Source: Branchiostoma floridae (taxonomy: Eukaryota; Chordata; Leptocardii; Amphioxiformes; Branchiostomatidae). From it: DNA of 64,000 nt. Shown piece after piece: positions 23,493-59,600 of the stretch. The notes below the pieces were generated by a model, which did not search any database, had not been told where the DNA came from, and saw only the letters and a program-made list of their open reading frames with translations. Position numbers and translations under genes: made by a program. Position 1 is the stretch's first letter. The number at the start of each line of letters is the position of its first letter. The stretch spans positions 6,470,976 through 6,534,975 of the forward strand of contig NC_049990.1 in NCBI RefSeq assembly GCF_000003815.2, read 5' to 3'.

Positions 23493-26400
23493 TCACGCAA
23501 TGTTAGGTAACGCGTAGCTCGCTTTCTGCTGGAACCGGTTAAAGTTATGGCGGACACTCTTGTGGTAGCGTGGGGAGGGGTAAGACTGGGAGCCGTGGTC
23601 TCGTGTGGGACGGGTACCGTTGGGCGGTCTGGATCTGTAGTACGGTGGATAGTCTGGTTCCGGCAGGCCTGCGTACATGGCGGGGTTGTAGTGCCCTGTG
23701 GTAGCCTCTGGCGTCTGCTGTGCCAGCTTAGTTGTAGACGACGACGACGAAAGCTGCAAGAGATATAACAGGGGTCTAAAAACAGCAACGTAATGACTGT
23801 ACATTATGCTCTTTATTACTGCGAGGACCAATATATTTTCATGTCTACAAAACTGCCATGTATTAGCGATATTGTTTACACTTTTTATGGGTGAAGTGGG
23901 TACGTATACCGGTACATCGAAAGAAAATCAGTGGACCGGATCTCGGACCGATTACCAAATGAACAGATTACATCATCAAGCACTCACTCAGTGTTGATAG
24001 TTTTATGCTCTCTATCTTGTATTTTTCTATACCATGTTCTTACTCGATGTAAAGTAAACAAACATTTACTACAGAGATTTGGCATGCATGCTATAACAAT
24101 ATATGAGATATTCACATGTGGAGACTCGTCATCGTCCGTCGTGGTTTCTTCGACAATGTCGTCCTTTTTCTCTGATTGGTCCATCTTATTGTCCGATGAC
24201 GTGTGGTAGGGCGCTGGACCAATTAGGCTGCAGATAACAGGCAGGAAGACTAGCCCGTGCCACAGTCCGAACAGGACAACTCCAAAGAAGACCTTGATAG
24301 GAAATAACAAATGTGTGTCCATCTTATGTCAATCTGCTTTTAGATTGCCTTAATCAGTGATGTTCAACCTTTGTCCAAGATTAGACGAATAAACTCTTTC
24401 ATATATACTGAAAGATATATATACTGAAAATACGTTGTAGACTAGAAAGGCAACATTTTCGAGAAAACGTAGGTTGTTTCTCTCCCCGCAATTTTCATTT
24501 TGCCAAGCTATTCGCACATAAGTCTCTACCATTGACCAAAAAAGGCCACTTTGTATTTGCTGAAGTAGCTAATATTTCGTTCATATTTGATGTAACAGCT
24601 GATGTAACTGGCAGTTCTAAGCTCTGATGTATTAGTGAAAGAAGAAGAAGAAGAACACGCCAGCAAAAATAACATGTTTTCTTTATGGGAAACATAACTA
24701 GATACGACTGAGCACAACTATAACAATGAATACAGCCTCACCTTGAAGAATGTCTGGAAGATGTACGACTGTGAGCCGGACAACAGCACAAACGCCAGGA
24801 AGGTACTGAAGCCGCCATTGAAGACCGCCGTCCCGATACGCAACAGTGTCTCCTTTGCACGTTCTGTCAGTAAATATTGGTTCGATATTTGAGAAGACTT
24901 ATGACAGGTTCTTACTGTTATCTCTCTTGCAATTGCAGTTGCAACAGTTAAGAAGCAATTGACAGCTATGTTATTTTCTTGGTGGAAGTGGTTTTCTATT
25001 TATTACTCGACTAAAAGGCTTGAATTAGTGGTTATGACTTGGAGGTTGAAATGTACATCATGACGACAGCTAACTCTAAAGGCTAACGTCACATTTCTAA
25101 GAGGACCGGCCGAGCAGTTTTGGGGAACGAAAATTACGATATAAAAGGCAACAAAAACACAAAACGGACCAAAAAATAGTTCAACAACATTCCTTGTGCA
25201 AATTTATTGGCATAAACTTTAATTTTTCGTTTCAGCAAACAGCCCGTCCGGACCCCGGTAGGAAATATGACGTAGTTCTAATCAGATCAAAAGTTATTCT
25301 GGACTTATACCCTACCCTATCATCCTACATCAGAGACAATTTGCCCCCATACCGTTCCGGGTCCCTTGCACCAGCATAAAGGTGTGTCCGACGTGGGCGG
25401 AGTAGTCCACGGCCAGTCCGACTGCCAACACCAGGATGACCATAGTGGACAGCTCTATGGTCAGCCCCCAGAAGTGCATCAGCCCGCCCAGGTCAACCTG
25501 CGGACAATACAGGTACGAACTTAGTCTTGACTCGTGTGTGACAGAGGATTCATACGTATTTTGAATCTAGCGATATATGTATTCTCCTTCTTCACCCTCT
25601 AACTTGGTTGTTTACCCCCTAACTACCCAATCGGGGCAGTGCTGAGGGGAGTGGCGTATGGATTAGGACAAGCGGGTCAGACAGTTTGCCGATTCCACTC
25701 AACAATTGTGGAGGAAAAAGGAACATTTGAGACAGTCTCTTTTGGCTCTGATCAACTGATATTCAAACGTGTGGCTTCCTTAGTGTATGCTTGGAGATTG
25801 TTTATTCTCTTTTTATCGATGAATGGCATTTGGCAACATCACTTTAAATTTACGTGATAATACGTTAAGCTTGGGACCGCATTTGGAACACTGCAGCAGC
25901 GACACCTAGCTGCAGTGCGAAGTAGAACCAGACATTATTGCCCTCAAGAAAAGCCTCCGTGGACCCAAAATTTAATCACATATTTGTCAAGGTAAAACGT
26001 AAATGCACATCAAATATTATAGAAATCAATCAATCATTTGATAGCTTCTTAATCTATTCCTTTTAACAACGAAAGCAAGGTTATGACAAGATGAATTCCA
26101 AACTCACCAGTGTGAGAACCACACACAGTGTGATGTAGATGCTCATGAGCAGGTCAGCCACCAGCAGGAGCGTTACCAGTGCCACAGCCACCATAGCCAG
26201 CCCGATGTTCCTGTACACTTCCTGCTGAATGATCTGGGCACATGTAGAAGATCAATGCTATACGTTACTGTTGTATGAAACAAAGGTAAGGCTCTACGAG
26301 CGGTGAAAAGAGTATTTGTGTGGCCAGGGGGAAGGCATATCCCATATGGTCTAGTGGTTAGGATTTGGCGCTCTCACCGCCAAGGCCCGGGTTCGATTCC

Positions 26401-29400
26401 CGGTGTGGGAAGTAGTATTTTTTTCACATTGTTATCAACAGTTTACATTCTACCTGACACTAATTAGTATGTATTTGCTATCAGGGTATTCGTTGTCTAT
26501 AGACCCTTTCACACAAAGCTGACCGTGGCCTTCCGACCTTCTCGAGACCATGGTTGGAAGTTAGTCATGAGATAGGTCATCATCGGTTGGGAGTCGGTCA
26601 GCGAGGTTGACTACTGGTCTTAAGAAGTCATCTGTGACATTCAACGATAAAGTGTGATAAATAAAAGTCGGGAACGTCATATTCTACTTAGATATAGTGA
26701 TAGGTCAAGAGGTGTTTGATAGGGGTTACGTATACACAGCATTTTGTTGGTTTCGTAGCGGCGGAACTGACTAGCGTACAGAAAGACTGTAAATATTCAA
26801 CTTAGACATCGTGATTTCATGGTTAAATGGGTTTGATGGGGGTTGCATTTACATACTCCCAGTATATTCTCGTACCTTGTTGGTCTCGTACCGGCGGAAC
26901 TGAGTGGCGTACGGGAAGACTGTTGACTGGAACCCGGCGGAGTCCGCGAGGCTCACCACGCTATCCATACCTTGTACTTGAGCTTCGGTGCTCGACAGTC
27001 GAATGAACTTAGCCCTCATCCTCGAAGTCTTAGAAACAAAACAAAATGATACAAAACGAATACTTCTGTAAACAGACTTGGTCGTTATAAGCGGACTTAA
27101 ACTTTTCTAACCACTTACCTACATGAAAACGGAGAAAACATTTTTTTGGTTTTGAACTATTGTGGTTGTTTGTTTGCCTTAGTGTTTGTCTGCAGGTGTG
27201 TCCTCAGTAATGTGGATTACGCAGAATGACACATATGTAACATAAGGTGATAGTGGTGTCATAGGATACTTGGAGAATCGGACGGCTGGTTTTGCTAGAC
27301 TCAAACTGAATGGTTGGTCAAAGATGTACTTACATAAATCCAAGTTTCTGATTGGGTAGTATCAAACTTGACGTCAGAGGCAAAGTTGTCACCGCCAACC
27401 GGAAATGGCGCGGCCAGGTACTCTTCTAGCAACGTGTAGAAGTAGCTCTCGTTCCCAGGAAAGTCGTCTGTAGAATATAAAACGTTTGCATGTGACGTCA
27501 CAACTAAAAGATATCAAAAGTTACAGGCGCAATATTAGTGGTGTGTCCAGATCCAAGATGGCGAATGGTCGTCTCGGACGTGCAGAGGTTGCATTCCCAA
27601 AACGAGTCATTCGAAGTATGGAGCTAGGTCTCTAGACATGCGAAGATACATTGAGAATCGTCTATTTAGTAAACGTTTTCAAAAGGTAAATTCGATTCTC
27701 TAATTGGTTGACAGCTGGTTAGAAGCCTCGCCCACAAACGTGGAAACCTCAGCCCGGGGTAGTGGAGCCTCCCTAGGTATATTGTATCGGTCGACACATA
27801 GGAGAATTATGTCGGTTTTAAAAGAACATTCCATTGCGTACCTGCAGTGATCCCTGGATCGCCGGACTTTTGTGCTTTGATCCACTCCAGAAAGCCGTGA
27901 TACCAGCTGACTACAGTTGTAGAGTCGATGTACTCATTACTCCTGAGGTTGGTGTACAGCGCCTCCATCCTTACTCGTTCGGTGTAATAGTCGGTGCCAT
28001 TTTCTAGTGGCACAGAAAAAAGATTTAACGAGGAGGTTCATTGTTTCAAGCGCAGAGGCACAGTAAAACGCATAGTGGGTGATATGTCAAAGGTGAATGC
28101 CCCTAAGTTGTAAGCTGTCCATGCCTATACGTAATGCATGTCCAGAGGTATTTGTTTATGCCTTAGGGGTCTACCGATTTTATATATTACCCACAATGCA
28201 TCTCACAGTGCATGCGCAGTTGGAGCGAAATGCACTGAGCTGTTTCTAAGTGATCAAACAAATTAACAAACTAACATGGGTCTTATATGGGTTTATATGA
28301 TACGTCTTTATATTGCATAGCCTAAATTAGAACTGGAAGTTTTAAAATGATTCTTCGTCTTTTAAAGAGATGAATGTAACAAAAAATACGGACTTACCTA
28401 TATACATCCCCACGTCCACACCGCCCTCTTCTGGGAAATACTGGGTATGCAGAATATACCGATCATTAACTGTTCATCAAAAGTATCTACTGTTCAATAA
28501 ATGACAGAATGGCAACTACTGATATAACTAATGAGGAATTTAACGTACAACCAATGAGAGAATGGTAACAAGCAGTGCAACCAATAAGATAGTAGCTGAA
28601 TGATAGGACCATGTAGTCGGTCTATTGGTACGACCATTCACTGATTACGATTCTTTATTTCAATGTGTAAAATTAACTCAACGGTAGAGTGGGGCAATTA
28701 AGTCACCGTCAAATCAGTATACTATTGTAATTCTAAGATCCGTACGTACCTGTTCATACAGGGTAGTGTACCTGAAGACGTAAGACTCGGCAGGTAGATA
28801 CCAGACGAAGTTGAAGTCCTGCTTCAAGCTGTACGTACCGTACGCCATCCACCCTGCCGTGCCGAACGTGATCAGAAGCACCAGAATCTGAACATGGAAT
28901 AGATGGCAAAATACAATGTACGAAAGGTCACATTATGACTAGAATGGCTATTGTGGGTTATTTCCTTTTATATTTTCATTCTTCTTTAATAATCTTGCAT
29001 GTGAATGTAATATGACTAAAAAGATTTACTTCCCACACCGGGAATCGAACCCGGGCCTTGGCGGTGAGAGCGCCAAATCCTAACCACTAGACCATATGGG
29101 AGATGTCTTGCTTTTAGCCGTTCAAATACTGTTTTGATACTCAATGTTGTTTATGAATTAGAACTGAAGGAAGTACATAATTTCAAATGGTGATCAAATC
29201 GTCAGGCATTCGTCAGTCAAATTAGCGTAGACATCTGTGAAAGCATTGTTGATTTAACATCATACATAAGCATATAGCGACCATCGCTCACCTTCACCGG
29301 GATTGTCAGCAAGATCCGGGAGTAGCATTTGTCGAAGAACCAGTGTACAAGGCTTTTGCGTGAACATCTGCAAAACAAAAAAGCGTTAATTTTCACGGAA

Positions 29401-39632: not shown

Positions 39633-42600
39633 ATGGCCGCTCTGCGAGGTGTTTATTTCCAGTGTCCTAAATTCGTCCACCATGTCCTGATATGGACGAT
39701 CCTATTTACGTCAGGCTGTCGTGCTTTCACCGTGAGGCAAACCAGCGATGGCGTCGACGTCCTTCTCGGCGGAACCTTGCTACTTCGCCACGAGAGAGCG
39801 AACCCCGCCATTTCGGTCGGGACAGGCACCACAGTTTTCCGTGAGCTTCATGGGAACTTCAACATCTCGGACACGGTGGACTCACGAGTTGCGTTACCTG
39901 ACGTCGCCGTGACGCAGCCCTCTCCGTCAGAGTACAGGCTTGTGTTCTCCTCTGGTGGCAACTATCAGGTAGGGATTTCTAAAAGAATTACGAAGTGGTT
40001 ATTGCTCTGATTTGTGGAGCAATTTATAAGTAATCTATTCGCACACATTTATAAGAGCAAATGTTGTCAAGGCTTCGACAAAGGTCACAGAGGTCAAAAA
40101 GAATTTTAGCGCATTTTAGAGGAGAAAATGTTTTGGTCCAACCCTCGCATAACCGCTAATTTACCATTCGAGTTGGCAAAGTCGGTCGTGCATAGTAAAT
40201 GATATATTTGACCTTCCTGGGTCACAGGGTGACAATGATTTAGCTAACAGTGCTAGTGGATTATTCTGGGCTCCAAACAAATTCTTTATTGGGGAGACGA
40301 GGATAGAAAAACGCAGACCACTAGGTACACGTACAAAAAACCGTATAAGTAGTAAATGGACCCCACATCTGCTTGGAGATATGCTTTCCTGTAATGTTCT
40401 TACTAAGGTTAACAAAACATGTTTTTTACACGTGTGATATGAAGTAAAACGTGTTAAAGAACACTAGAAAGAATGTCAAAAGTAGTTAACGTCTTGGAAA
40501 AAAGAAAGCATCTGATATATGAATCTGAAGTTATAGCGAAAGACTGAAAATAATATTGAGTCTCCTCTTTCCACATTCGGAAACGTATAATGAATGATAT
40601 AGTTTTTCTTTGTAAAATGTTTTTCTGCAGACTGAGATGAGGCTGATGACTGGGAACAAGGGGTACGATCACGTGATGAACATCTCGATCCCAGGGAACC
40701 TGGACAGAACGTGGCTGCGGCTCTACGCTGATGACGGAGAGCATGTTTATGGAGGTAAGAGCCCCTAGAGATGGTCGATCTACTTTCTCTCCCTTTCAAT
40801 GACTTTTCATAGGTAAAAAGAGAAAATTGGTAGTTGTGAGTACAAATGGGATAATTGGCAGAAAACACGAGACTGGAATGGCACGATGTAAGCATAAGCA
40901 AGTCTTCCTAAACTTGAAATTATGTAGGTGGCGTTTTTTTATGACAGGAGAGAAACATGATATGTGAACAAAAGTTAAGGTAATCCCAGTGAAAAAAGCT
41001 CAGATATTTCTGTTTGTTTGTAGCATTAACGCTTACATATCTGTGTAGATTAAGACATGAAAAGGAGAGTTTCCACAGATGTAACCTCCCCCAGCGAAGT
41101 CAAGTACATTTTCACATTGATTGGGTGATTCTAATTAAATCTCTTGATCACCGACGCCACTCTATACACCTATACATGTATTACAATATCATGGGGACAG
41201 AATGTAACATTTTGGCAATTGATTTTTTCCTGTAGGCGGGGAACAGTTTACGTACTTCGACCTGCGTGGACGGAGTTTCCCGATATGGACCCGGGAGCAG
41301 GGCGTCGGGCGGCAGCCGGGCACGTTCGTCACCGACGAGGCCAACAGACGTGACGGTGGCGGCGGGGACTACCACACCACTTACTGGCCACAGCCAACCT
41401 TCGTCTCCTCGCGGAGGTATTTCTGCCATTTTACCACCACGGACTACATGATTATGGACTTTAGCGACACCAACGCCCATGTGATACAGATGTGGGGCTC
41501 GCCGGGTGTGATTCACTTCGGCTCCGCCGCCAACTTTCGGGAAATCTCGGAACAGATCGGAGAACTGCTCGGGAGGCAGCCGGAGCTTCCCGACTGGGTG
41601 CACGACGGCGCGATTCTCGGCGTACAGGGAGGAACGAGCGAGGTTCTGAGGTACTTAGAACAAGCTGAAGCTCAGGGGGTCAAGGTCAACGCTCTGTGGA
41701 TCCAGGACTGGGCGGGAAGAATCACAACGTCCTTCGGAAGACGACTGTTCTGGAACTGGGCGTGGGACGAGAACCAGTACCCGGGACTCCGACAAGAAAT
41801 CGTCAGACAGAAGGAGCGAGGGGTCCGATTCCTCGGGTACATCAACCCGCATCTCAACAAACTCGGGGACCTGTACACCATCGCAGATTCCCGCGGATAC
41901 TTCGTGAAGAACTCCACGGGACAGACGTACATACAGGACTTCGGAGAGTTCTTCTGCGGTACCATCGACTTGACCAACCCTGCAGCCTTCCAGTGGTACA
42001 AGAACGAAGTCATCGTCAAGAACATGATCGAGCTGGGCCTGGCCGGTTGGATGGCGGACTTTGGCGAGTACCTCCCGCCCGACATGGTGTTCCACAACGG
42101 CGTTCCAGGGCGAGAGATGCACAACCTTTACCCAGCACTGTGGGCAAAGGCCAACAGAGAGGCAGTAGAAGAGTCCGGCAAACTTGGAGAAATAGGTACG
42201 ATGAGACGTTTCATTCCTTCTGCTAAATCCATGGGAACTTGAAAAGCTGCGTAAACTTTCTTGATGTTTTACTTATTATTAAAAGATTAGTTTTAGGTCC
42301 CAGTACAAAGACAAATTATGGAACTCTCTCGACCACAACTGTTTCCCTCTTGTCTACAACTTATCAGCCTTGGAAACAAATGTCCACCGCTATCTCCGTG
42401 CACAGTTATTTCCAACTTCTGAGTTCATTACCACGAGGTGGTCTAATGACCTTGCTCTGAACAAACTCCTTAAAGAAAGGTTGCTGAAAACTGAAATAGA
42501 TCGCATGCAAAAAGAATTATTTTCATAAAGAAATGCAGAGATTTCAACGATACTTTACAACAATAGATGTTATAGGTATATCATTATATGTACGAATTTC

Positions 42601-45453
42601 AGTGTTCTGGATGCGGGCTGGGTTCTCCGGCAGTCAGAACTACTCCGTGATGTCCTGGGCCGGAGACCAGTTTGTAGACTACAGTCTGGGTGACGGGCTG
42701 GCGTCAGTCATTCCCGCCGCCTTGTCTCTAGGGGTGTCCGGCTACGGGCTGTCCCACTTCGACATCGGGGGATTCACCAGGTAACGTTATAGATAGATCC
42801 CGACTGTCAATCAAGATAAGTTTTTATTCAAAGATTCGTTTAAGGTTCCTCGGAGTGTCTCTTGGAGTGTCCGGCTACTTCCGTTTTTACGAAGGGAATA
42901 CTTAGTACATATCTTACGCATTGTCTTTCATTTCAGCTTGTTTGGGATAACACGTACGGAAGAGTTACTTCTCCGCTACACAGAAATGGCCGTCTTCACA
43001 CCGATGATACGGACCCACGAAGGTAATCGACCAGCAGATAACTGGCAGGTAAACGTTTTTGTTTTCTTTCACATGTATGTCTCTATTGTATACCACATTT
43101 AAACGGGCAGTTGCTTCCAATACAAGGAATTGGACTGCCTATATAATGGCCAACCAAACTTCATGGAAGGGGGACGATATCAACTTTGACCCATGACCCA
43201 CAACATGCATCATTCACATGTTCTCAGAAGTGGGACCAATCATCCTGAGTCAGGTCGTAGCTACAGTCGAATATTATGTTACTCTGTTTCATCTAGTAGT
43301 TAGATGCTACAATGATGTCTGTCATAATTCATGCCCGTAATCTCAGTCACGTTCGTCATCAAAATTCTTGACCCTGCAGGAGCGACACCTGGCTGCTGTG
43401 CGAAATATCATGGGCCAGTCAGATATGTCTGAGGAGGGAAACAGACGGTCACCAAATTAAATAGATATTAATGTATTAGTTGTATACAAAGAACTTTGCT
43501 ATCCTTGGTTTTGTAACGTTACAATGATGTACATTTCCAGGTGTACTCCTCTGACAGCACGCTGCAGCACTTTGCCCGGCTGGTGGACGTGCACGTCAGT
43601 CTGAAGGACTACATCCGGGAACTCGTGCAGAACAACAGCCGTTACAACCTCCCCGTGCAGAGGCCGCTGTTCTTCCACTACCAGGAGGATCCGGCGGTAA
43701 ATTCCCCTTCTGATATCTAATTTGTGAATCTTGGTACTGTTTTTGATGTGTATGCGAGTCTGCGTGTGTACATGAATGTTTGTGATGTGAAGTGGAGCGG
43801 ACTCATTCCTCACGTTACCTACATCTTTCGCACTGCAGTCGTCTCGCGGAAAGACATCTGGAAACGCATTGTTGTTGTTTATCACAACCGGATTGCTTGC
43901 GTAAAACGCCTTAGTTATACTTACAACTTCACAGCATCACTCTACTTTACATTGCACATGTGTTTAGTTAGTTTTTCAATTCTTGGCCAGCTAAGCAGAA
44001 GCTATGAATGAATTGTAAGGAATGTTTGCAATGTTTTCTTGTTTGTTTGTTTTGTTGTTTGGTTGGTTTGTCGGTAGCATATATTGATACTACAACTTTC
44101 CCAGGTGTACAGCATCAAGTACCAGTACCTGTTCGGACCGGATGTGTTGGTGGCACCTGTGTACATGGAAGGCGTGGACTCCTGGCAGGTGTACCTACCC
44201 GAGGGGGACACCTGGGTAAGAAATCTTCACTATCTATTCAAATTAATGTACACGACATACAATGTTCGACGTAAACAATGAACAAAGTTGTCTTTAAACA
44301 ATCTTCTTTAATTTGTCAGTAAACTTTTCGACGACCATCTATCGCCTAAGAATTAAAGTAAGTTGTATAACGAAGAAGACTTTGTTCAATTGATCCTATT
44401 TACGGAAATGGTTTTAGAAAAACCATGTCCGTTAAAAGTGCATATGTCAGTCCCAGAAGTAACTAACGACAATGTCAACAAAAATTTATACTTTAAGTGT
44501 GGCAAAAGGCATTTGATCTGTATCTGTCTTGTCCACATGCATAGCATTACATATTTTTAATGAAAATTAATTACATGTTTAATTAAGTACAAAACCAGAT
44601 TAATGATGGATTGGCACGTTTCACCAAGTGCTGACGTCGCGTATCCGCAAAATCACATGTTTATAGATCACGTGTTAACAAAATCCCGTGTCTGTACGCA
44701 ACTCTCGCGAGTATACGTTCTGAAGTGATTGGTCATCAGTATTGATCCTGAAGAAGGCGACTTTGGTCGTTGAAAATTTTATCCTTGTATACCTTTGTAC
44801 TGTAAGAAAGTTTAGCATTGTACTAAGATATCATTATTTTTGGAATGCTACATTTATTTCTTTGTTACGTTGTTGCCAGGTCCATCTGTGGAGTGACAGA
44901 AGCTATGACGGCGGCCAATTGGTGACAGTGGACGCACCCCTCGGGCAGACGCCATTTTTCTTCCGAGCGGCCTCCAGATGGGCATCCTTGTTCAGGACAG
45001 TCGCTAGAGGCACGTACTTTGAATCTTTCTATTTCGGACATCTAATCATACCTATGGAGAGAAAGGGTGGAGAGAGGAGGGGAAGAGGCGGAGGGAAGAG
45101 TTTTAAGTATAAAAACAATCTTATTTTTGTACTGCATGACTATAGATAGAACACTCTGCATATTAAGCTATTGGAACAAGTGGGTAATTCATTGATTGAA
45201 TGAATGACTATAATGTATGGGTCCATTAACACATATGAAAAGTCAACAAAAACAAATGCTGCCTGGTTTTCTGTGGCAAACTTTTATATTGATTAATGAG
45301 ACAAAAATCATCACTGCCTTAATAATGTTTTGTCTTTTTCCTTTTTCAGACAACCCTCTGCCAGTGAACGGAACGAGCTTTCACCGCATCATCCTACCTT
45401 ACGTCACAGCTATAATCGCCATCTTTGTCTTCTTCTGGTTCCGAAATCAGTGA
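39633..45453 (+). CDS. Sulfoquinovosidase-like GH31 glycosidase, nine exons, complete
   Basis: Plus-strand exons: 39633-39968, 40631-40754, 41236-42195, 42603-42780, 42937-43048, 43541-43696, 44105-44215, 44880-45009, 45350-45453 (2211 nt, 736 aa). A hydrophobic signal segment lies at about residues 17-35. The catalytic domain resembles bacterial YihQ, a GH31 retaining alpha-glycosidase that releases sulfoquinovose from sulfolipid glycerol. The nucleophile is D428 (WMADFGEY) and the acid/base D495 (WAGDQ). The sulfonate-contact residues recalled for YihQ correspond to Q310 (WIQDW), R323 and W326 (GRRLFW). The third contact, Tyr in YihQ, is F531 (DIGGFTR). MRTHEGNRP-type active-site loop residues are kept in exon 5. 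A C-terminal hydrophobic stretch (about 716-732) ending FWFRNQ predicts a tail anchor, absent in YihQ (about 678 aa). The last intron needs a GC donor (GAG|GCACGT). Many introns exclude bacterial contamination. Confidence 0.9.
42290..42528 (+). pseudogene. Unidentified ORF relic in GH31 intron 3
   Basis: From about 42298 a frame without an ATG stays open for about 76 codons to a TAA at 42526-42528, with protein-like composition (YKDKLWNSL ... RWSNDLALNKLLKERLLK ... ELFS). A TTTTAG acceptor-like sequence precedes it. I do not recognise the family. It could be the end of a mobile-element protein, a skipped exon, or chance. Nothing around it supports expression as part of the GH31 gene, whose exon 3-4 junction is in frame without it. 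Confidence 0.3.
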
Positions 45454-46113: not shown

Positions 46114-46740
46114 ATGTCAGCTTGGGTGAAGACCATCTGGTGTCTTCTTTGCGCTCACCAGCTGATAACCTGTGCAAATGCAGCCGTAAAAGAACGGCAT
46201 TATTTTGTCGCTTGTAAAGAAGTGTTGTGGGACTACGCACCGGGAAGCTACAACAAGATCACCAACACCGCCATTTCTGACGACAGGTAAATCATTTTAC
46301 AATAATGCGACGGTATATCCAAACGTTTTCGGTCTCACGCGCAAAAGAGGGTTGCTTAGGGGACGTAAGTCTAATTTTTGTAAATAACTACGCAGTATGA
46401 AAAAAGTATGATTGAATTGTTAAAGCTATCCCGGCCCCCCAAAAATGTGAGTGTCCGTTGTTTCAGGGTGAACCTGAGAAGTTTTTGACGTACCCAGGAT
46501 TGGTACAATAACCTAGTGAGTAGAGTATTCTCCTTACATGCAATATCAATACAGGCTGAGTCATACGAAATGGTACATACTGCTTTCTGTGCTTAGCAAT
46601 TGGCGTTTGGAAAAAAATATGGGAGTTGAACCGATACGAGAGGACTATTCCCCGGATGTAGTGCTTCCACAAGTTGAGTGGTACCGCACTTAGTTGACAA
46701 GAACATCGTGTCTAAAGTACCCTGCAAGGTACTGCGGTGT

Positions 46741-47020
46741 ACCGAAAGTGCGAAAAAGAACGAAAAGGAGCGAAAAGGAACGAAAAGGAACGAAAAGGAG
46801 CGAAAAGGAACGAAAAGGAGCGAAAAGGAACGAAAGGGAACGAAAAGGAGCGAAAAGGAACGAAAAGGAACGAAAGGGAAAGTACCGAAAGTGCGAAAAG
46901 GAACGAAAAGGAAAGTACCGAAAGTGCGAAAAGGAACGAAAAGGAACGAAAAGATTGGATAGGAACGAAAAGGAACGAAAAGGAAATTACCGAAAGTGCG
47001 AAAAGGAACGAAAAGGAACG
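46741..47020. repeat. GGAACGAAAA satellite array, left side of gap
   Basis: Tandem 10-bp units (GGAACGAAAA, GGAGCGAAAA, GGAACGAAAG) are punctuated by a higher-order spacer AGTACCGAAAGTGCGAAAAG. All reading frames through it are open because the array lacks stops. Located in intron 1 of the ferroxidase fragment. Confidence 0.95.
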
Positions 47021-47292
47021 GGTTCCCACGCGGGCTGTCACAGATCAAATTGGGGGGAGGGGGTGGGGGATTGAAAGCCGCTGAGTAGCGCGCTAGAAAA
47101 ACGTTTGACGAGTTGACATTCTGGTGTAGGTTATTTTTCTACGGTCCCAAAAATGTCACAAAGTCGTTTTCTAGTGGTCCCGGCCTGAATTATAAGTGGC
47201 CCCGGGCAATCGGGACACCGCGTTGATTTCAACTCGAGGCCTGGCTCCAAAGACTTTTTCTGCCCGAACCCGCACGGGAGACGTGTGTCGCC

Positions 47293-47392
47293 NNNNNNNN
47301 NNNNNNNNNNNNNNNNNNNNNNNNNNNNNNNNNNNNNNNNNNNNNNNNNNNNNNNNNNNNNNNNNNNNNNNNNNNNNNNNNNNNNNNNNNNN
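47293..47392. other. Assembly gap of 100 N
   Basis: Exactly 100 N, the usual placeholder for a gap of unknown length. On its left the satellite reads purine-rich on plus but ends 270 bases before the gap. On its right it starts at once and reads pyrimidine-rich. The missing sequence could contain exon 2 of the ferroxidase fragment. Confidence 1.
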
Positions 47393-47554
47393 CCTTTTCG
47401 TTCCTTTTCGTTCCTTTTCGTTCCTTTTCGTTCCTTTTCGCACTTTCGGTACTTTCCTTTTCGTTCCTTTTCGTTCCTTTTCGTTCCTTTTCGTTCCTTT
47501 TCGTTCCTTTTCGTTTCTTTTCGTTCCTTTTCGTTCCTTTTCGCACTTTCGGTA
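47393..47554. repeat. Satellite array, right side of gap, inverted orientation
   Basis: Units of CCTTTTCGTT with the spacer CGCACTTTCGGTACTTTCCT, the reverse complement of the left array. The outer border also matches in inverted form (ACCGAAAGTGCGAAAA next to a CAGTACC/AGGTACTG-type flank), so the arrays form a large inverted repeat around the gap. Confidence 0.95.
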
Positions 47555-47754
47555 GACCCAGGTACTGCTACACAGGTCTACACGTTCTAGACCAACTTTC
47601 TTACATACTACGTTGTCCAAATTCCGCACAGTATTTTCGAGTGAAAAAAGTTCAATGGGGTATTCAATTTTGACAAGATCCGTAGCTAGTCGAGTCGACG
47701 GTTTTGTCATAATCGCCAAAATTCCCTAGCCTAAGTATCAGTACTGTCTATTCA

Positions 47755-48330: not shown

Positions 48331-48886
48331 GAATGTGATAGATTATGAAATGTTGAGTATCAGCCATTTAGGCTCCCATTCTCACCCCAAGAGCAATGAA
48401 GGTAAGAATGTTGCTGAATCCTTACCATGTCTAGCACTAGTCACTGCTGTTCGTTCGTTATAGCGATAATGAAAGAAAGAATTTGGTAACAATGATGACA
48501 CAAAAGACTGTAACACTTTGAATGAGTAACTTGCAGTACGTCCAAGGGTACCTAAGATTTAGATCATTTTCCTGACTTGACCACGACTTGAAACTTAAGG
48601 TAAACTATATTCAAAGGTTATACAATATGTCGAAAAGTGAAACCGAATACTGATTTAGAAATACAATCGTTTTCAGGAGCTCTTTACTACGACGGAACGT
48701 CTGGTAAGAACAAATCGGACGACGCTGTCCCACCTGGCGACACCTATGTGTATCGCTGGCAAGTGACCGAAAACGAGGCCCCCGCTGACGACGATCCGCC
48801 ATGTTTGACGTGGATGTACCATTCGCATGTTGACACCCCTAAGGACATGAGCTCCGGCTTGACGGGGACCATAGTGACCTGCAAAC

Positions 48887-49177
48887 CAGGTATGAGTTTC
48901 ACGTGTTATGTGTTGACTCAACTCTATATATCTGACATAGTAGTCCTTTTTTATTTTATGTACTAAATTAGGCTAACATTCGTACGTATTTTATGTCTTG
49001 GCGTGGTGGGACTTTGGTGCACTGTTATGTTGATTAACTGAGTTCATTTATCTATTGTATTTTGTTATGTGGCACTGCTAAAACAAGTTTTATACCTTGA
49101 GTAGTGCAGTGCCATATTGTCGTTGTCATGTGTTCTTGAATAAAAAAACAGGTATGTGTTTCACGTGCTATGTGTTT
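48887..49177 (+). mobile_element. Probable retroelement 3-prime fragment flanked by 28-bp direct repeats
   Basis: The donor region of the exon at 48677-48889 (CAGGTATGAGTTTCACGTGT, 48887-48914) recurs at 49149-49176 (CAGGTATGTGTTTCACGTGC) with only two or so differences. Between them is a 234-bp segment with a GTGGCACTGC...GCAGTGCCATATTG motif ending in TTCTTGAATAAAAAAACAGG, i.e. a polyadenylation-like, A-rich 3-prime end. This is the expected footprint of a retrotransposed LINE/SINE with a long target-site duplication. Family not identified. Confidence 0.55.
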
Positions 49178-49187
49178 CAATGGTCCC

Positions 49188-49272
49188 TATAGGCGTGTGC
49201 AGTGTCCACAAATCCAAGGTGTTTTACATTTAAATGGCTATCACCTTTGACATATTACCCACAATCCAGCAC
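49188..49272. mobile_element. MITE, family A copy 3 (partial)
   Basis: The right terminus CACCTTTGACATATTACCCA, then CAATCCAGCAC, matches the inverted terminus of the copies at 28049 and 32220. The left part (CCCTATAGGCGTGTGCAGTG) is only loosely similar. Confidence 0.45.
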
Positions 49273-50649
49273 AGGTTGCGTGGTTGAATTAATTCATTAA
49301 GAGGTCTAATATGTAAATTAAACAAGAAGCTACCATCAGATTGGTGGGAATTGGAAGAGAGTATGATTTTAGAAAATAGACAATAATAACTAATGTTTTG
49401 CCGTTTCAACATGTCTCACATCCCATTTGTAAGATGATAGACCTAACTTTCTGGCACATTAGGTAGCCCAGGACTGGACGCTATTCTCAAATAGCGTCAA
49501 GGTTCCACCCGTTCAACGGATCCAACATGTGTTCACTGGGCCTTTATTCTTGCCCGTAGCGCCGGATTCTTGAACTCCCTAGATTCCCAACGCACTTACC
49601 TGCCTTGACGGGCGAAAAAACAACTCCAGAAGCCTCGAGATAATCCACACCAGGGCTTCAAAGACAAAGCTCCATTCATAAAAGCCACCGGCCGGCCATT
49701 TTTGTCATTATTTATGCGAGAATTTGACCCGATGTGACCCCCACGTCAACTTTGGAAAAATGATAGCAGCTCATTCGTCCCCTGTGGTTTCTTCAGTTTA
49801 ATTCAAAGTTTCAAGGACACTAAACTGAAGAAACCGTATTTCCGAACCGTGAGTTGTAGCAGTTGCATGCGGTCGTGTTGAACCAAACCAAGCACCATGC
49901 ATCCATGCATCCATCCATGCATCGAAGCAAGCACTGAAGGTAAAACCCAATACATTGCGTTTCGTCACAATATAACTGTATGTAACACATTATTTTTTTA
50001 TTAATAACACTCTATATAACACTTTCAATTTACATTCATGTTCAACATATGGGCAAGAGTTCTAATAGAGTGAACTCCATATAATTATATATCACTATAT
50101 CATCTGATATTACCAACCCTAAGGATCTATTTATTAGATAAAACACTTTTAAGATCTTATATAAAACAACATAACGTTTGATTTATATTTAAGCTGAACA
50201 ATAATAGCTTCCACATTACTTTCCACATCAGGTATATCAACAGTCACATAGATGGGTTGTACTTCTTGTTCATCAGGCACAAAGGTTGTAACCCAGGTAA
50301 CATGTATAACTCCGCAATGAATCCCACTTGGCGAGCAAAATAAATAGTGGAGTCAGTTAAAGAATCCAATTGTTTTATAGTGTCGATTTGCTGTGCATGA
50401 ATGGGCATTTGAACACAACCGAGCAAAGTCAATCCGTTTCATGATTATTTCTTTTGCCAAAATAATAGCCCATACTAAAACGCACTCCACACTCAAAACA
50501 GTATCTAGTACCCTTTTCCCATTACTGATGTAACGTTACAGACAATCCGATGTATTCTTATTCAGGTTGATGAAATAGAAAGGATGAAAATGTCTAGTTT
50601 TTTTTCAAAGCAGTAACGTTAGGCTAAATGAGTCGCTTTCACACTTGGA
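49273..50649. other. Intergenic region between convergent ferroxidase sequences
   Basis: No gene recognised. Contains a perfect 15-bp inverted repeat (GGTTTCTTCAGTTTA at 49786-49800 and its complement at 49821-49835, loop of 20), a CATGCATCC microsatellite at about 49897-49925, and minus-strand AATAAA signals at 50130-50135 and 49997-50002 that may end the complete hephaestin-like transcript. Confidence 0.5.
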
Positions 50650-53600
50650 TTATAAGTCCGCCCCCGTATTGTCGTATCCGGTCATCTCCATGTTTCTTCC
50701 CTTGCCCTTGTTTCTCTTTCGAATGACAAGGTATCCGATCATGAAGCCGACGAGGAGTGTTACCACGCTGACAGCTCCCATAATCGCGAATGGCTGCCAA
50801 GTCCTGGTCCATTCCACTTTCTGTGCGCTGACACTTCCGGGATCTGGTTTAGTTGTCTTTTGCATCTCTGAAAGATACGACCAGGTTCATTAGAACATTT
50901 TTAAATCCCGTACGAACGTTATACATAAACATTAACCAACAACTGCTTCTGTAATGATCTTTTTGTTTCTTCTGCTGACCGCGCGCCATTGGGCGTAACA
51001 CACCAGTTTTGTACAGTTCACCAGACTCAGCTGTCTGATAGTTTTAATCCAATCACACCGGGATGGCCCCCTACTGTTTCCGATAAGTGTGATGAGCTGT
51101 ATAACGCGTAGAATCTATGCCTCCTCTCAAACACAGCTTTATGTCTAATAGGAGAAGACGTCCCTAACCCAAGCTTGGTACTCTCGAATCAGGTAATGTA
51201 TGTAAAACACCTTTCCCTAGGACATACCATCGGAGCCCTCAAGAGATTTGAACCCAGAACCTTTACATTCTACATTTGTAAGTCAACTGTCCTAATAACA
51301 AACCACATTGTCACTTTTTGATGGAGAAAAAAATCATAAATCAAACAACTTTCCTTTTTTCCTGGTTAATGTATGTGCGACACGAAAAAATAGACAAGAT
51401 ATACCAGGCGATTTTGTCGTATTTGCATCAGACAATCCTGTTGTCTTTGCATCAGGCAGTTCTGTTGTCTTTGTGTTAGGCAGCCCTGTTGTCTTTGCAT
51501 CATCCTGATGTTCTCTGGATTTGATAGTGTAGAAGGCCATCATCCCTTTGTCAAAGTGGTCTGCCACGTGGCAGTGGATGATCCACGTTCCTGGGTTCTC
51601 CGGCCTCATCCGAGCAGAAGCAAACACACCTGCATGAACAATCCAGGATAAAGAAATGATTTATCTAAAAAAAGTAAAACACTGGAGGACAAGGTTAAGA
51701 ATCTTCGTAGAGAATGCTTACAGCATAGAGAATGCGTACAGCAGTAGATTAAGAATTTGCAGATATTTCAAGCCCCCCCTGCCCATGAACAATCAATTGG
51801 TGGTAAAATCGCATTCAAATGCTCAACCCATTCAATATTGATACATTCTGACAGAAAGGAGGAGACCAACCTGGGAAGAGGTCCCAGACGTCTCCCCGAT
51901 GGTGCCTCCTGTTGTCTGTGGTGTGGATGAAGGTCTGTCCGTGGAAGTGCACGGTGTGAGTGTCCACCTCCGTCCCCATCCCCATCAGGTACCACACGAC
52001 ATCCTCATCTTCAACCATCTCCAGACCCAGGAGGTTGTGGAGAACGTAGCCGTTTATAGCTGTATGAAAGAAAATAAAACTAGCTGTATACGTATTGTGC
52101 AATATGTATTGATAGATGCAACAATGGCTCCAACTGAACATGTCCAGTAAAATAGATTGTGGCTAATATGCCAAATATGAATGCTTTTTTCTATTCAGTG
52201 CTGAATACGTGCCAAGACAAGTTCTTAATGACTTGTGGCATGTAACACACAAATGCATTTTGCTGTGTGCGCATACGCATTTGAAACCATAAAACTACCA
52301 ATGCCGTAGCAATTCTTTTTATCGAAGGTACCACTAATATACACGAGAAATAAAGAATAATTGTACGATAACAACAGATCACTCAGAAACAAAACAAAAC
52401 GTATAGTCGTACCAAACATGTGGTTGGCTTCCACGAAATCCCCGTCCTCTGGATCCACTTGATCTGGATTCCCGCAGTGATTCTGGATGTTCTCGTCCAG
52501 GTACCAGCTGTTACTCTCTTCCGTCCCCGTAAACATCAGGACGAACTCACGGTCAGCGTCTGATCGGCGCCCGTCGGCACCGAGCGTTCCTTGCCGACAA
52601 ACCACGAGCGGGCCGATGAGACCCGAACTGGTGTCCTTGACGGGATCGACGCTGGAGTAGTAGGCCCATGGGATGCAGTTGTCTGATTTCTCCGTAGGAC
52701 CCGCTCTTGGTGGAACAAACCATGTATAAGCATACATGCCATTTGGTTCTACGACATCGTCTCCTTTTGACACCCCCGATGTCTTGTCCTCATACAGCGC
52801 CCCCTCGTCCCACTTACTGTACAACAGGCCGTGCGGGTGCATGGAGTAGGGATGTGACGCCATGTTCTTGAAGTAGACCAAGATGACGTCACCTATTTCC
52901 GCCTCGATCATTGGTCCAAGCATGCCCAGATGCTGGTCCCGTGGTCCTCTCTGTTTTTGGACTGTGAAGGTTGAATCGGTGTACTCCCGATACAGGGCTT
53001 TCTTGTACTGTGATCCAATCATGGTTGGTCCAGAATAGATTCGGTCGTACAGAGAGCTGAATGTGGGGAAGAAAATCAAATTGTAATTCCTCGTATATCA
53101 AAATTAATTGCCGAGTAACATGATCATAAAATTCAACTTTCTTAAAAACTTCACCGGGACAGAGGACACTTCCAGATACTGCCGGAGGTCACGAGTCAGA
53201 CGTGATGGGGGTCAGTATTTCTGAAGAAGGTAGAAGCGTCGGTCGAACATTCCAGATTGAATATTTCTTGTATCTATCTGTATGTACGTTGCAATGTAAT
53301 ATAATCTGTACATTTAGAGAAACAGAATCTGCCCCTTCCCAAATTAGACGGGGCTTAGCAGGCACTTTTGTTATTCTTTTACTCTCAATGAACAGGTTAC
53401 ATCAAAATGTATCTTACATACAGATACAAACAAATGCATCTATTTAAGAACCTAGTACCTGCTTTCATTAGTCACAATGTCTCCGTAAATATCTCTTTTG
53501 TCCTGTGCGTAGTCCCATTCCTCCTCCACAGTAGCGATGTAGAACGTCCGGATGTTCCCTGAGCTGCGGAACCAGAACTGTGGGCCGTCTGCATCGCAGG

Positions 53601-56600
53601 TCTCCACAGACACTTTGGCCTTCATCCCGGCACTGTAGTGGTCGTTGGTCACACATTTGATAGCCCAGTCACCTGTAACATGGAAATAGTTAAGATTAAT
53701 TTGGTCTTATCGATATATAATGGTGTATCCTTCCCTGAAAAGGAGCTTTAATACATCTCTTACCCGTTAAACTAGTAACGTTTTCTACGTTAATTTGACA
53801 TTGTCTATGTAGTAAAATGTAGAACATCTCGACGTACTGGCAATGCATTTAAACGGTTCATTATTAACACTAGTATTCTATGTAATGTATAAACAATTGG
53901 GTGCTCCTTGTGGTGATAATTCTAGATGTGTAGATGCTTAATTTCTAAAATCAGCCCTAAAGTATCTTTCTATTTTAGAAAATCTACATCCCTACAGACA
54001 TTAAGATGGTGGTACGTACCCTCGTTATCTGGCACCATCTCCAGAGTCTCTGTGGACCCAGGGAAGATGGAGATGGAGTCCCGGGTCTGTCCGTGGTACT
54101 GGAAGGTCAGACCGTGGAACGCCAAGGTGTGGATGTCAACCTCGGTCCCCAGACCCATGACGTACCACGTGACGTTGTCGTTCGTGCACATGCTCAGACC
54201 GGGGAGGTTGGCGTACATGTATCCGTTGATGCCTGGTGAGAGAGGTTTTAAGGTTTTAATCATGCAATTCTAATAAAGATAACACCTTAAGCTGAAATAC
54301 GTGGTGATTTCCCAGGTTTTCTAGACTCATTTTAAAGCATAATTAAAGCTACGCCTGCTATGCCTGCTATGCCAGTTGACGTAGCTGGTATTTTAACTTC
54401 CCGAGTTACAGACATCCAATGACACATTACAGAGATATCTATAGAATTCTTGGCAAACAGACATATCATATATTATTAGGCTGTATCTCAGCACTCAAAC
54501 TCACCATGCATAAGATTTGACTCTGCAAAGTCTTCATCCTCTGTATCGCCAACAGTTCCAGACTCTGTGAAGTTCGCAATGTTGTCCTCCAGGTACCAAC
54601 TTTGGTTCTCGTCGTAGACAGCAAGCATCAGGAAGAACTCTCGACTGGAGCTGACATCAAGCTGAAAAATAGCAACAGTGACAATCTGCTCACTCTTGGG
54701 GTATCACCAAAAATGTAAAGTTTTCTTTAAACCTTCGATAGGTAACGATAGTTAAGAAAAAGTTGGTCCTCGGTCAATCTTCTTACCCGCTTTCCTTCGC
54801 TGTCCAGAGTCCCTGCCTTACAAACGACCAGAGGCCCGACCAGTCCGGAGTAGGCATCCTTGACCAAGCTGACCCCTGACCGGTACAGGTTCACTAGACA
54901 CGCAGGGTCTCGCTCTGTTGGCGCCACGGACGGAGGGACAGTCCACACATAGGTGAAGGTTCCACCGGGCTCCACACCCCCACCTGCTGTCTTGTTATCT
55001 AAAGAAAATAGATATCAAATTCTCTGTCTAACAATACACCACGATTTAAAAAAAAAAACAAGCAAGCACAAGCAAGTGTCAAACTGCACTGACAACAGTA
55101 GTGGGGCATCACTACTTACCACTTCCATAAGAAGACCCTTCGTTTGACTTGTTGTAGAAAACGCCATGTGGCTCTATGCTGTACGGCCTGTCCGCCATGT
55201 TTTTGAACGTCACCCTGATGGTGTCCCCGACCTCTGACCTGATGACCGGTCCCAGCATGCCTAGGTGCTGCTCCTCCTGAGTGCGGTTCTTGCGCACCGT
55301 GAAAGTGGCGTCGGTGTATTCCCTGTAGAGAGCTTTCTTGTACTTCCCTCCGATACGCTCTGGCCCTTGTTCGAAGAATACCACCGAGTCGCTGGCGACA
55401 TAGAACATTGCAATAGATAGTGTTAGAATTAGAATACTCACTGACCGGTAAAAAGTTACAATAGACAGTGCCCAAAGTGAAAGAAGTCATCTTCATCAAT
55501 GCACGTAAATCTTTGCAAGATTTATAGGACAGGGGCTCATGCCTGCTTCCATTTTGATATCATTACTGCTTTTAATTCAAAACTATTACCTGCCGTCTTT
55601 GAGAAGACTCCCTCCCTCGAAGTGGTTTATGCCTGAAGGTGCGTAGTCCCAGGTCACCATCTCTGCTGCGATGTAGTAATGGCGGACAGTCCCCTCCAGA
55701 GTTTCTTCTGGCATGACGTTACCGCAGCCGCTAACGTTGTATAGGGCCTGCATTCCAGCTAAAACACGGAGCCACATACATGTATTAACATAATGTTTTT
55801 GTAACTTTGACGATTAAAGATGTCCAAAATGATGATGATGATACACATATCGAAAGGAAATAAAATGATGTGCTAGTAAGTTTTATTTTATATTTTTATC
55901 AATTCATTCATTTTGAAATAGAACATTTTGGGACAATATTGCTACCCTGGTATCCAGCCGTATCATGGCTCCCGAGTCTCTTCTGTCCTCTCCGCAAATT
56001 TCCTACGGCTCAGGACATCAGGCTACAATGTTGCCTGATCTGTTAAAACACACATATACAACACCATACAGAGAGTATATTTTCATTCGTGCATTGAGAC
56101 CCTCACCCAAAAAGTGATCTCCAACCTGACAGCTGACCATCCACTCTCCTACATTCCGTGGCTCCATGACAACAGTCGCAAAAGATGCTGGGAATATCCC
56201 TGCTGTGTCCGTTCTGTAAAGATGTGACAAAATTTTTAAGTTTCAAACATGTTCATGTAAATTGCCATATATGATCAGTTTTAAAGTGCTTCTTGCTAAC
56301 GATCACGACAAGACGATGATAAAAATTGATCAGACATTTTGTTGATCTACCTGTGAAATTGGACGCTGACTTCGTGACCCCGGAAGTGAATGGTGTGGAT
56401 GTCAACCTCTCCGCCCCTCCCCACCAGGTGCCACGTGACGTTCTCTCCCACACACATGTCCAGGCCGGGCAGGTTTCCGTACAGATAGCCGTTTATGCCG
56501 TGCATCAAGTTACTCTCCTGGGAAATGGACAACAATGATATTCAATTGGCAATCGTTCATGCTTCTAGCAGCCCTTTCACTGGTCAGGCCCATAGAACCT

Positions 56601-59600
56601 TGATACCCAACTTCGCCAAGCCAGGAGAGTTGTCAACATCCTTGTTTATTCATACATATGTGATAACATGGACCAATTATCATAAGACTGAGATCTGTCT
56701 GTTGGAAGCTGTGGTGCCTGCTTTAAAATTAACCACTGACAGTGATAGATTGTGTTACACCGCCTTCAGTATATTTGTGCAAATCTGGGATCGATCAAGT
56801 GTTAGTGATCACATATATCTTTCAAAATTACGTTACAGGATGTTTATGGCTCCCAATAACTTTGAATACCTAAGGGTATTTTCCAAGAACATTCAGGTAC
56901 TTCCTCACATACCTGGAAGTCTTCGTCTTCCTTCAGGGCTGCTGCCTCTTCGTCGGTGACGTTCAGGAAGTGCGCGATGTTCTCGTCTATGTACCAGCTG
57001 TTGTTCTCGTCAAGGATGCCGAAGTTTATGGCAAAGTCTCTGTCAACTCCTTTTTGTTTTCCATCGTCACCAAGGTAACCTATTAAAGTTAGACAGGACG
57101 TCAAAATAGACTCATGTCAAGCAGTGAGACAGTTTGAAATACATAAAAGCTGCTTTAAGGAAAACCTTCTTCCCAGCCCTTCGCATGCGTCTCTACTCAC
57201 CATGTGTCTTGACCCACCATGTGTCTCAATAAGTCACCATATGTCTAGCGTCTTTTCCCATCGCGTGTCTTTACTCAACACGTGTCTTTATCCACCATGT
57301 GTCTTAACTCACCCTATATCTTTACAAACCATGTGTCTTAGATCCGCCATGTGTTTTTCTCAGCATGTGTCCCTGCCAACAAGGCCTCCTTTATACCCAC
57401 CATGCGTCTTTACCCATAATGCGTCTTTACCCACCATGCACATTCTCTCATGTTCGTTAAACACACATGACAGCAAACAAATTCACCATAACATGCAGAC
57501 AGAAGGAACACATACCTGGTTTGCAGGTCACTATCGTTCCCGTCAAGCCCGCGTTCATGTCCCTGTCGGCAGCGACATGCGAATGGTACATCCAGGTCAA
57601 ACATGGCGGATCGTCGTCAGCGGGAGCCTCGTTCTCAGTCACCTGCCACGTGTACACGTAAGTCTCGCCCGGTGGCACATGGTCGTCCGATTTGTTCGTA
57701 CCGGAAGTACCGTCAAAGTAAAGGGCGCCTACATAAAACATCAGTCTTCTCAATCATTGATGTAGGTACACATGTAGGTATATTTATTCAGAGACATTCT
57801 CTCACAATAACCAAGTTCATAGTTTTACGTGCGCAAGTGCAGTATGATGCACTGTGTGTAAGACGCCAAATTTGGAGGCCTTTGTCCATTCTTCGTGTAC
57901 TGCCAGGGGCAATCAACTTTGACACTGACTAGCTACCCACAACGCATTATTACTGCACATGCGCACTTCAACCTCTGAATAAGCTTATTCTCAGTGATGT
58001 TTAAGTAGGTTACAGTAATTAGCTAGGAATTAAGTGACAAGAAAATAGTACAGTGGAAGTATTTCGAAATCCGTACCTTCGCTGTTTTTCTCGTACAAAA
58101 CTCCGTGAGGATGCATGCTGTAGTCCCGTGACGCCATGTTCTTGAAGTGGACAATGATGTCCTCCCCCACTTCTCCACTAATGGTAGGTCCCAGGTACCC
58201 TAACCATGTCGGGTGTTCTTTCTCCACGGTGAAGGTTCCGTCCGTGTATTCCCGGAACACTGCCTTCTTGTAGACGCTGCCTATCCGGTTTGGACCTGGC
58301 TCCAGGAACACGGCTGCATCACTGAAAAGGACAAAAGAAAAATTCACATTTTTCAAATTTCTGCAAAGGGAAAGAGCATAAGTGGCATTCTATAGGCACT
58401 CAAATTGTAATAAAATTCCTATCTTACAACTACGTTACCGATTTATCCTAAGCATTCAACGATCAGGAAAATGTCCTGGGCACAGAAGTAACAATTGGAA
58501 TCAGATAATGCCACTTGTAAATAAGTCAATGGATTTTGCCACATTTCCAATGATGAAAAGAATGGCTCACTTTAAAGAATACTATTGACACAATCCTTGG
58601 CCAACAAGAGCTGTCTTGAACTACATACATACATACCGCATGTGTCACGATAACCATATCGAACGTTTACTTTTGCCATGGCAGACGGGATACAAATACA
58701 AACTAGATTGACATATAGACTTAGAGATGAAATATTTGCTTGATATACGAAAGATAATGAAAGTGGCAAGTCTGTGTCTTCGACAGTTTGAAAAACGTTG
58801 AAAAATGTTTGTCTTGCATATAATAGGGGAATCCCTTCCTTTTTTAGAAGTCATGCCGCTATATATGATTTAGTACTACTTTAAGTATTTGGCCCGATTT
58901 GGCATGAATGCGCATCAAAGCAAAGGAGTCAATATTTTCATTGATCTCAGCTGAACGGCTACAAACAAGCACTTTGAACTTGAGTTATCTAATCTAAGCG
59001 ATCTCGTCTAAAATAGTTTTAAAGGAAGGTGCACCAAAACATCAGAATGTCTCCCGAAGAAATCTGGCTTTGAGCCAGAGCTGTCTCTACAACACAATGG
59101 AAATGTCACTCCAACAGACTGCGAATGCCTTTTATACACCAATTACCGGCTTGTATGTATATAAGTACGCGGTACGGCCAGGAACGAGATAACATGCCCT
59201 TCTTTAGCCGAGTACAAGATGGTGACGTGCCACTATAGGCTTAATCCTAAACAATTAGTGCCGAATATCTTACGTCATATATACGTAACATAAAATTTGA
59301 GAACTTGTCTGTCACTACTCGTGCACTTTTTGCATGTAGAAAACGGAAACATCAACAATCAACAGACGATACATTTTATAACTAAGAATACATACCTTTG
59401 TCCTCTTACTAGACGTCGAAGTCTATAGCTACTTCTGTCGTAAATTAAACTAATGTTTTTTTTTTCAGTGTAAAGAGAATCGAAGTGAAGTCTACTAGAG
59501 AAGTCTACTTACGCCTTGAGGATGTAGTTCTACACTTCAGAGGTCTATGAGAGAAGTAGACTATGATGTCTAGTACGAAAATCGTTAACATACTTCTGTT

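Follow-up and report, generated by a model that had tools for sequence, protein, structure and literature searches.

The window analyzed here is a 64-kb stretch of the genome of the lancelet Branchiostoma floridae (6.47-6.53 Mb of the 23-Mb contig C12, in an assembly of 513 Mb and 431 contigs). It contains, on the plus strand, a gene for a glycoside hydrolase family 31 (GH31) protein that resembles YihQ, the sulfoquinovosidase of Escherichia coli; enzymes of this type free the sulfur-containing sugar of the sulfolipid of plants and algae. The gene has nine exons and eight introns (Table 1), and its spliced coding sequence stays open for 736 aa, in agreement with the strand, coordinates and intron number proposed in a first-pass annotation made from the DNA letters. 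The start codon and the splice sites were inferred from sequence. Introns 1 to 7 are bounded by GT-AG, and for intron 8 a GC-AG pair alone keeps the frame with the last exon, a choice supported by an intron of a paralogous gene, described below, that has the same position and phase.

A sequence search of the Protein Data Bank (PDB) with the window protein gave 61 distinct sequences at E 0.001 or better, and the scores reported are for the best 60 of the 61. E. coli YihQ is the best match (764 bits, E 1.3e-228, residues 32-700), with 49% identity over 677 columns. The six top matches extend along almost the full protein with scores from 764 down to 667 bits, and comprise two entries for YihQ together with 8r56 (761), 6pnr (671), 5ohy (669) and 5ohs (667). 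The last two are deposited as 'Alpha-glucosidase yihQ', and 8r56 and 6pnr, which carry general names, we assigned to the YihQ type on the basis of score and pocket. Rank 7 is Agd31B at 162 bits, and among the other GH31 enzymes the best glucosidase II chain reaches 97, acid alpha-glucosidase 64 and MYORG 55 bits. Profile searches agree: against the NCBIfam model NF007746 (PRK10426, the yihQ equivalog, still described at NCBI as an alpha-glucosidase) the window protein scores 895 bits over profile positions 10-678 of 683, where the curated cut-off is 553, whereas the next model, for alpha-xylosidase, gives 198 bits against a cut-off of 606. In Pfam, the GH31 barrel and C-terminal domain match and the N-terminal domain falls just under its cut-off (25.7 vs 27).

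Table 1. Exons of the window gene (window coordinates), other features of the window, and GH31 genes elsewhere in the genome
Feature	Position	Strand	Description
Window gene	39633..45453	+	GH31 protein
Exon 1	39633..39968	+	Holds start codon, weak hydrophobic leader and beginning of N-terminal domain; aa 1-112
Exon 2	40631..40754	+	Flanking introns (phases 0 and 1) both common to paralog
Exon 3	41236..42195	+	Much of barrel; pocket Q284, Q310, R323, W326; predicted nucleophile D428
Exon 4	42603..42780	+	Predicted acid/base D495 (YihQ D472); F531 (YihQ Y508)
Exon 5	42937..43048	+	Phase-0 intron after exon common to paralog
Exon 6	43541..43696	+	Spliced frame
Exon 7	44105..44215	+	Spliced frame
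Exon 8	44880..45009	+	Followed by GC-AG intron, position and phase as in paralog
Exon 9	45350..45453	+	Linker, C-terminal membrane segment (about aa 712-733), short tail, stop
tRNA (Rfam)	26340-26411	+	
tRNA (Rfam)	29030-29101	-	
Repeats	about 46600-47700		Reading KERKGTKRNEK in several frames; N run inside
Ceruloplasmin/multicopper-oxidase-like exons	48604-57753	both	
Paralog, YihQ-like	G000:C12:6874688-6880684 (loci L010-L012)	-	8 exons, 757 aa, leader, C-terminal membrane segment
MYORG-like GH31 genes	C2:16482200 (L001), C2:19025324 (L002), C15:14026332 (L003), C15:16258494 (L008)		One of the four has an uninterrupted 654-aa open frame

Catalytic and sulfonate-pocket residues

Residues of the window protein were numbered against E. 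coli YihQ as read from the aligned YihQ sequence, where the letters Q262, Q288, R301, W304 and Y508 were confirmed. The roles of these residues (nucleophile, acid/base, sulfonate pocket) are those established for YihQ, and the two forms of the pocket motif are named QQRWY and KERWY. Both catalytic Asp residues are present, D428 at YihQ D405 and D495 at D472, as are four of the five pocket residues, Q284, Q310, R323 and W326 standing at Q262, Q288, R301 and W304. The fifth differs, with F531 at the position of Tyr508, a departure from the motif of the characterized enzymes. Tyr508 participates in sulfonate recognition and presumably helps to define the activity. Of the YihQ residues named in the first-pass annotation, the two Asp, Q310 and R323-x-x-W326 (Q288 and R301-x-x-W304 in YihQ) all hold, but the Phe had been overlooked, and because of it the pocket of the window protein is not wholly that of YihQ.

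The same position varies elsewhere. Among 13 sequences that we took as bacterial sulfoquinovosidases it is Tyr in 12 and Phe in one (L044, from genome G305); an Entomospira sequence with a gap at 508 was left out of the count. L044 scores above the yihQ model cut-off and has Tyr for Trp304 in addition to its Phe, and L042 (from genome G087), also above the cut-off, has Gln for Arg301. Both may act on other substrates. These altered residues indicate that the pocket varies in nature and that Phe at 508 is not unique to the lancelet. A divergent YihQ-like sequence on Entomospira culicis plasmid p98 (L016; 27% identity to E. coli YihQ) has, as aligned, Arg in place of the acid/base Asp and Pro in place of Arg301, although the alignment is unsure at such distance. 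Words for the pocket motif gave no match in a literature search, nor any in the accessible part of a cow-rumen paper.

A second copy, shared introns and phylogeny

Searching the whole genome with the window protein returned 24 pieces, which belong to the window gene, to one paralog and, more weakly, to other GH31 genes. The paralog lies 358 kb from the window gene on the same contig, and the two proteins are 56.7% identical. The first-pass annotation had described a single gene; the genome has a second of the YihQ type. The paralog scores 831 bits on NF007746 and reads Q, Q, R, W, D, D, Y at the aligned positions, that is, a complete QQRWY pocket and both Asp, the Tyr being Y534. A separate contig scan with a single protein query found one distant GH31 only. 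A candidate for a third YihQ-like gene, on contig C8, was rejected, since its translated pieces look like another GH31 type: one piece of 49 residues has 45% identity and one of 36 residues 58%, and what remains is weak or at chance level.

Four introns are common to the two copies, exact in both alignment column and phase, four are confined to the window gene and three to the paralog. When introns were placed at random, none of 200,000 runs gave three or more shared. Such exact matches make it most likely that the shared introns predate the duplication. Judging from the two gene structures, the common ancestor of the copies most likely had introns, and considerable intron change after the duplication is indicated.

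Phylogeny was based on limited bacterial sampling and on the GH31 proteins of the lancelet genome itself; the proteobacterial sequences came from a plasmid collection, in which the query found 204 records, 44 of them matching along 80% or more of its length. Five of the 25 rows in the larger tree were flagged as long (Entomospira, G328, L036, L037 and L009), and a 19-row tree omits these five as well as the half-filled row lancelet_C15b. In the 25-row tree the window copy and its paralog are sisters (100/100). The pair groups with the 13 sequences taken as bacterial sulfoquinovosidases at 87/93 in the 25-row tree, a value starred by the tool, and at 100/98 in the 19-row tree. Four other GH31 genes of the genome are MYORG-like: L001 matches MYORG at 501 bits, and the rest are so called from their 100/100 grouping with L001. 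The approximately unbiased (AU) test rejects a clade of the lancelet pair with these proteins, both with four such rows (p 4.9e-5) and with three in the 19-row tree (p 0.0027). Grouping with MYORG had been named in the first-pass annotation as an outcome that would speak against it; its view that the gene is nearer to YihQ than to acid alpha-glucosidase, glucosidase II or MYORG is borne out by the PDB and NCBIfam scores, the tree and the AU test. That this is an ordinary animal GH31 enzyme of one of those three types, YihQ-like by shared motifs only, would fit the common fold family and the matches to Pfam GH31 domains, but 764 bits to YihQ compared with 97, 64 and 55, together with the AU result, led us to reject it, and we give it hardly any credence.

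Concerning position relative to the bacteria, the AU test does not separate a lancelet pair inside the bacterial set from one beside it. An ancient acquisition and an old retention, the two histories named in the first-pass annotation, would both fit these trees. None of three arrangements was rejected: bacterial monophyly (p 0.127), lancelet with E. coli (p 0.122) and lancelet with the G122 group (p 0.316). Bacterial monophyly is weakly recovered in the 19-row tree (61/58). Within the phylum (taken as Bacillota) of the Syntrophomonadaceae genome that carries L009, the model cut-off is exceeded in 5 of 398 genomes and 7 are found at E 1e-100; two orders inside this phylum gave 2 of 189 and 2 of 4 genomes, overlapping the phylum set. 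None of 14 named control genomes, E. coli among them, was above the cut-off. Of 5426 complete E. coli genomes, 3867 contain a sequence close to a yihQ query of 1000 bases; by this search roughly 30% do not have a close yihQ copy. Two narrow-pattern scans of viral contigs found no relative.

Genomic surroundings and membrane segment

There are 96 frames of at least 90 residues in the window, and ten that flank the gene were run against Pfam. Five matched, two to sterol-sensing/Patched and three to multicopper oxidase domains (one just under the cut-off). One of the oxidase exons is a ceruloplasmin match, with 554 bits summed over three repeats, and one of the Patched-type exons matches an NPC1-related protein and, weakly, Patched. 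Flanks of this kind indicate animal DNA. With the introns, the 23-Mb contig and a paralog that shares introns, they uphold the earlier claim of a resident animal gene. High similarity to bacterial proteins is what bacterial contamination or a very recent transfer would produce; however, the eight introns, the intron-sharing paralog, the position within a 23-Mb contig, where exons of sterol-sensing/Patched type and of ceruloplasmin type lie on either side, and an identity of at most 50.8% to any aligned row from outside the genome all argue against it. On the introns, flanks and paralog we rejected this explanation, whose probability we regard as negligible.

Several other features of the region are listed in Table 1. 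The ceruloplasmin/multicopper-oxidase-like exons are perhaps a local gene cluster, and the two tRNAs have equal scores, opposite orientation and a spacing of ~2.6 kb. On contig C16, 14 homeobox loci lie on one strand within 473 kb (150 of 246 candidates were scored, and two loci are split in two), an array that fits the single large Hox cluster of lancelets. A search for the GFP family, whose genes are documented in lancelets (PMC4911609), gave no match, but its control was silent too and the result carries no weight either way.

Leader and anchor were called from hydropathy, as Kyte-Doolittle means. The C-terminal segment of the window protein has a 19-aa mean of 2.13 at residues 715-733, the maximum of the protein, and the paralog has a corresponding stretch at 2.14, again its maximum; a short tail follows in both copies. 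E. coli YihQ is without a comparable segment (best 19-aa mean 1.16). At the N-terminus the leader of the paralog stands out, at 2.92 over 9 aa compared with a maximum of 2.14 in residues 40-690. The window protein has six N-glycosylation motifs. We infer that it is probably a membrane protein of type I whose enzyme part faces the lumen or the outside. The first-pass annotation had proposed both a signal peptide and an anchor; the C-terminal segment is clear, whereas the leader of the window copy is weak by hydropathy.

Predicted function and comparison with known enzymes

Given the results established directly (gene structure, family placement, the catalytic residues and four of five pocket residues, the C-terminal hydrophobic segment, the second copy and the shared introns), we consider it likely that the window gene, one of two old paralogs, codes for an animal enzyme of GH31, a YihQ-type (QQRWY) alpha-sulfoquinovosidase anchored in membranes of the secretory pathway. 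Its activity, substrate, topology, place of action and use on algal lipid are predictions. The N-terminal leader would direct the protein to the secretory pathway and the C-terminal segment would anchor it, so that catalysis would take place on the lumenal or outer face of the membrane. Homology predicts a retaining glycosidase with D428 as the nucleophile at the anomeric carbon, D495 as acid/base and a sulfonate site made up of R323, W326, Q310 and Q284, and alpha-sulfoquinovose would be released from sulfoquinovosyl glycerol or from sulfolipid. Lancelets are filter feeders and take algal food; degradation of sulfolipid from such food, suggested in the first-pass annotation, would be one possible use. 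The benefit to the animal might, speculatively, be salvage of glycerol or lipid, or clearance. To a bolder proposal we give about even odds: that the animal makes its own membrane-anchored sulfoquinovosidase, which would be the first enzyme of the sulfolipid cycle from any animal, has kept it through an old duplication, frees algal sulfoquinovose without bacteria, and has retuned the pocket of one copy for a second substrate.

With Phe in place of the pocket Tyr, the window copy may be slower or altered in specificity, while the paralog has the full motif. The window copy could thus have shifted to another alpha-glycoside, with a different anionic C6 group or a neutral sugar, leaving the sulfoquinovosidase role to the paralog. 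F531 compared with Y534, the long separate history of the copies (seen in their identity and in the introns confined to each), and the drift suggested by L044, which as the sole Phe sequence among the 13 relatives also has Tyr for Trp304, are consistent with such a shift; but Arg323, Trp326 and both Gln are kept and the score is far above that for any other GH31 type, and we view the shift as unlikely, if worth keeping in mind. It is more doubtful still that the gene is catalytically silent or decaying: as support there is only that it is known here from DNA, and the frame is open over nine exons with both catalytic Asp in place.

Several observations weigh against an active sulfoquinovosidase in this animal. 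The gene is known here from its DNA sequence, F531 replaces Tyr508, and the leader of the window copy (VLIWTILFT, 2.37 over 9 aa) is exceeded by an internal stretch at 43-51 (2.41). Genome searches with single E. coli YihT and YihS queries were empty and gave no sign of downstream sulfoglycolysis, though these had no positive control, which makes them uninformative, and YihR, YihU, YihV and other pathways were not searched. Finally, the accessible text of a 2025 study reports no breakdown of sulfoquinovose by mammalian cells, human ones included, or by germ-free mice (PMC12330013), so the function is not found in all animals; the same text calls the ability of animals to degrade sulfoquinovose unclear.

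Sulfoquinovose production is put at about 10 billion tons a year in the available part of one paper (PMC10755693). A 2022 review, as far as accessible, states that degradation has been detected in plants and algae and that the enzymes responsible in eukaryotes are unknown (PMC9594981), and the accessible portions of reviews state that no degradation pathway has been characterized in eukaryotes. No animal-encoded sulfoquinovosidase appeared in the titles of the literature found on sulfoquinovosidase, or among the matches listed in related searches, none of which extended to most of the subscription literature. Among the matches listed for yihQ, a plant transcriptome study gives a fruit gene that name and a red-algal paper merely cites the E. 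coli work. Animal sequences of the YihQ type may already bear an automatic sulfoquinovosidase-like name in databases, and the main structural paper on sulfoquinovosidases reportedly discusses a wide distribution. Sulfoquinovosidases as a class are known, chiefly from bacteria; finding a member of the family in an animal, as two old copies that have membrane segments, was unexpected, and the animal host, the protein layout and the Phe variant are new to us. Degradation by animals can now be tested directly on a gene that has both catalytic Asp and most of the pocket, and the Phe and Tyr copies form a natural pair for studying specificity at one pocket position. If the prediction is true, an animal may carry out the cleavage step for the sulfolipid sugar without microbes.

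The closest known system is E. coli YihQ (PDB 5aed/5oht), with which the window protein shares family, the match over residues 32-700, the Asp pair and the equivalents of Q262, Q288, R301 and W304. Unlike it, the window gene has eight introns and its product an N-terminal leader, a C-terminal membrane segment and a Phe where YihQ has Tyr508. In E. coli, yihQ has sulfoglycolysis genes as neighbors, whereas Pfam recognized none among the ten flanking frames. PDB 8r56 ('Glycosyl hydrolase, family 31') has the top identity among rows outside the source genome (50.8%) and the pocket Q, Q, R, W, Y; it differs in keeping Tyr at 508, and the window gene in having introns, leader and membrane segment. 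The YihQ-family entries 5ohs and 5ohy are presumably the Agrobacterium enzyme with a K-E-R-W-Y pocket, and rhizobial relatives have K, E, R, W, Y where the window copy has Q, Q, R, W, F. Human MYORG, a GH31 alpha-galactosidase (PDB 7qqf), resembles the predicted protein in family and, according to the accessible part of its description, in being a membrane-bound animal enzyme (PMC9491548). It is unlike it in sequence, MYORG-like L001 differs at the pocket, and the lancelet has MYORG-like genes of its own. Members of glycoside hydrolase family 188 (GH188), the NAD+-dependent sulfoquinovosidases (SqgA), are reported, on sequence evidence, for plants and for one alga in the available text of PMC10755693, so that eukaryotic sulfoquinovosidase candidates already exist in another family. 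SqgA catalyzes the same net reaction as that predicted for the window enzyme, but belongs to a different family and works by an oxidoreductive mechanism.

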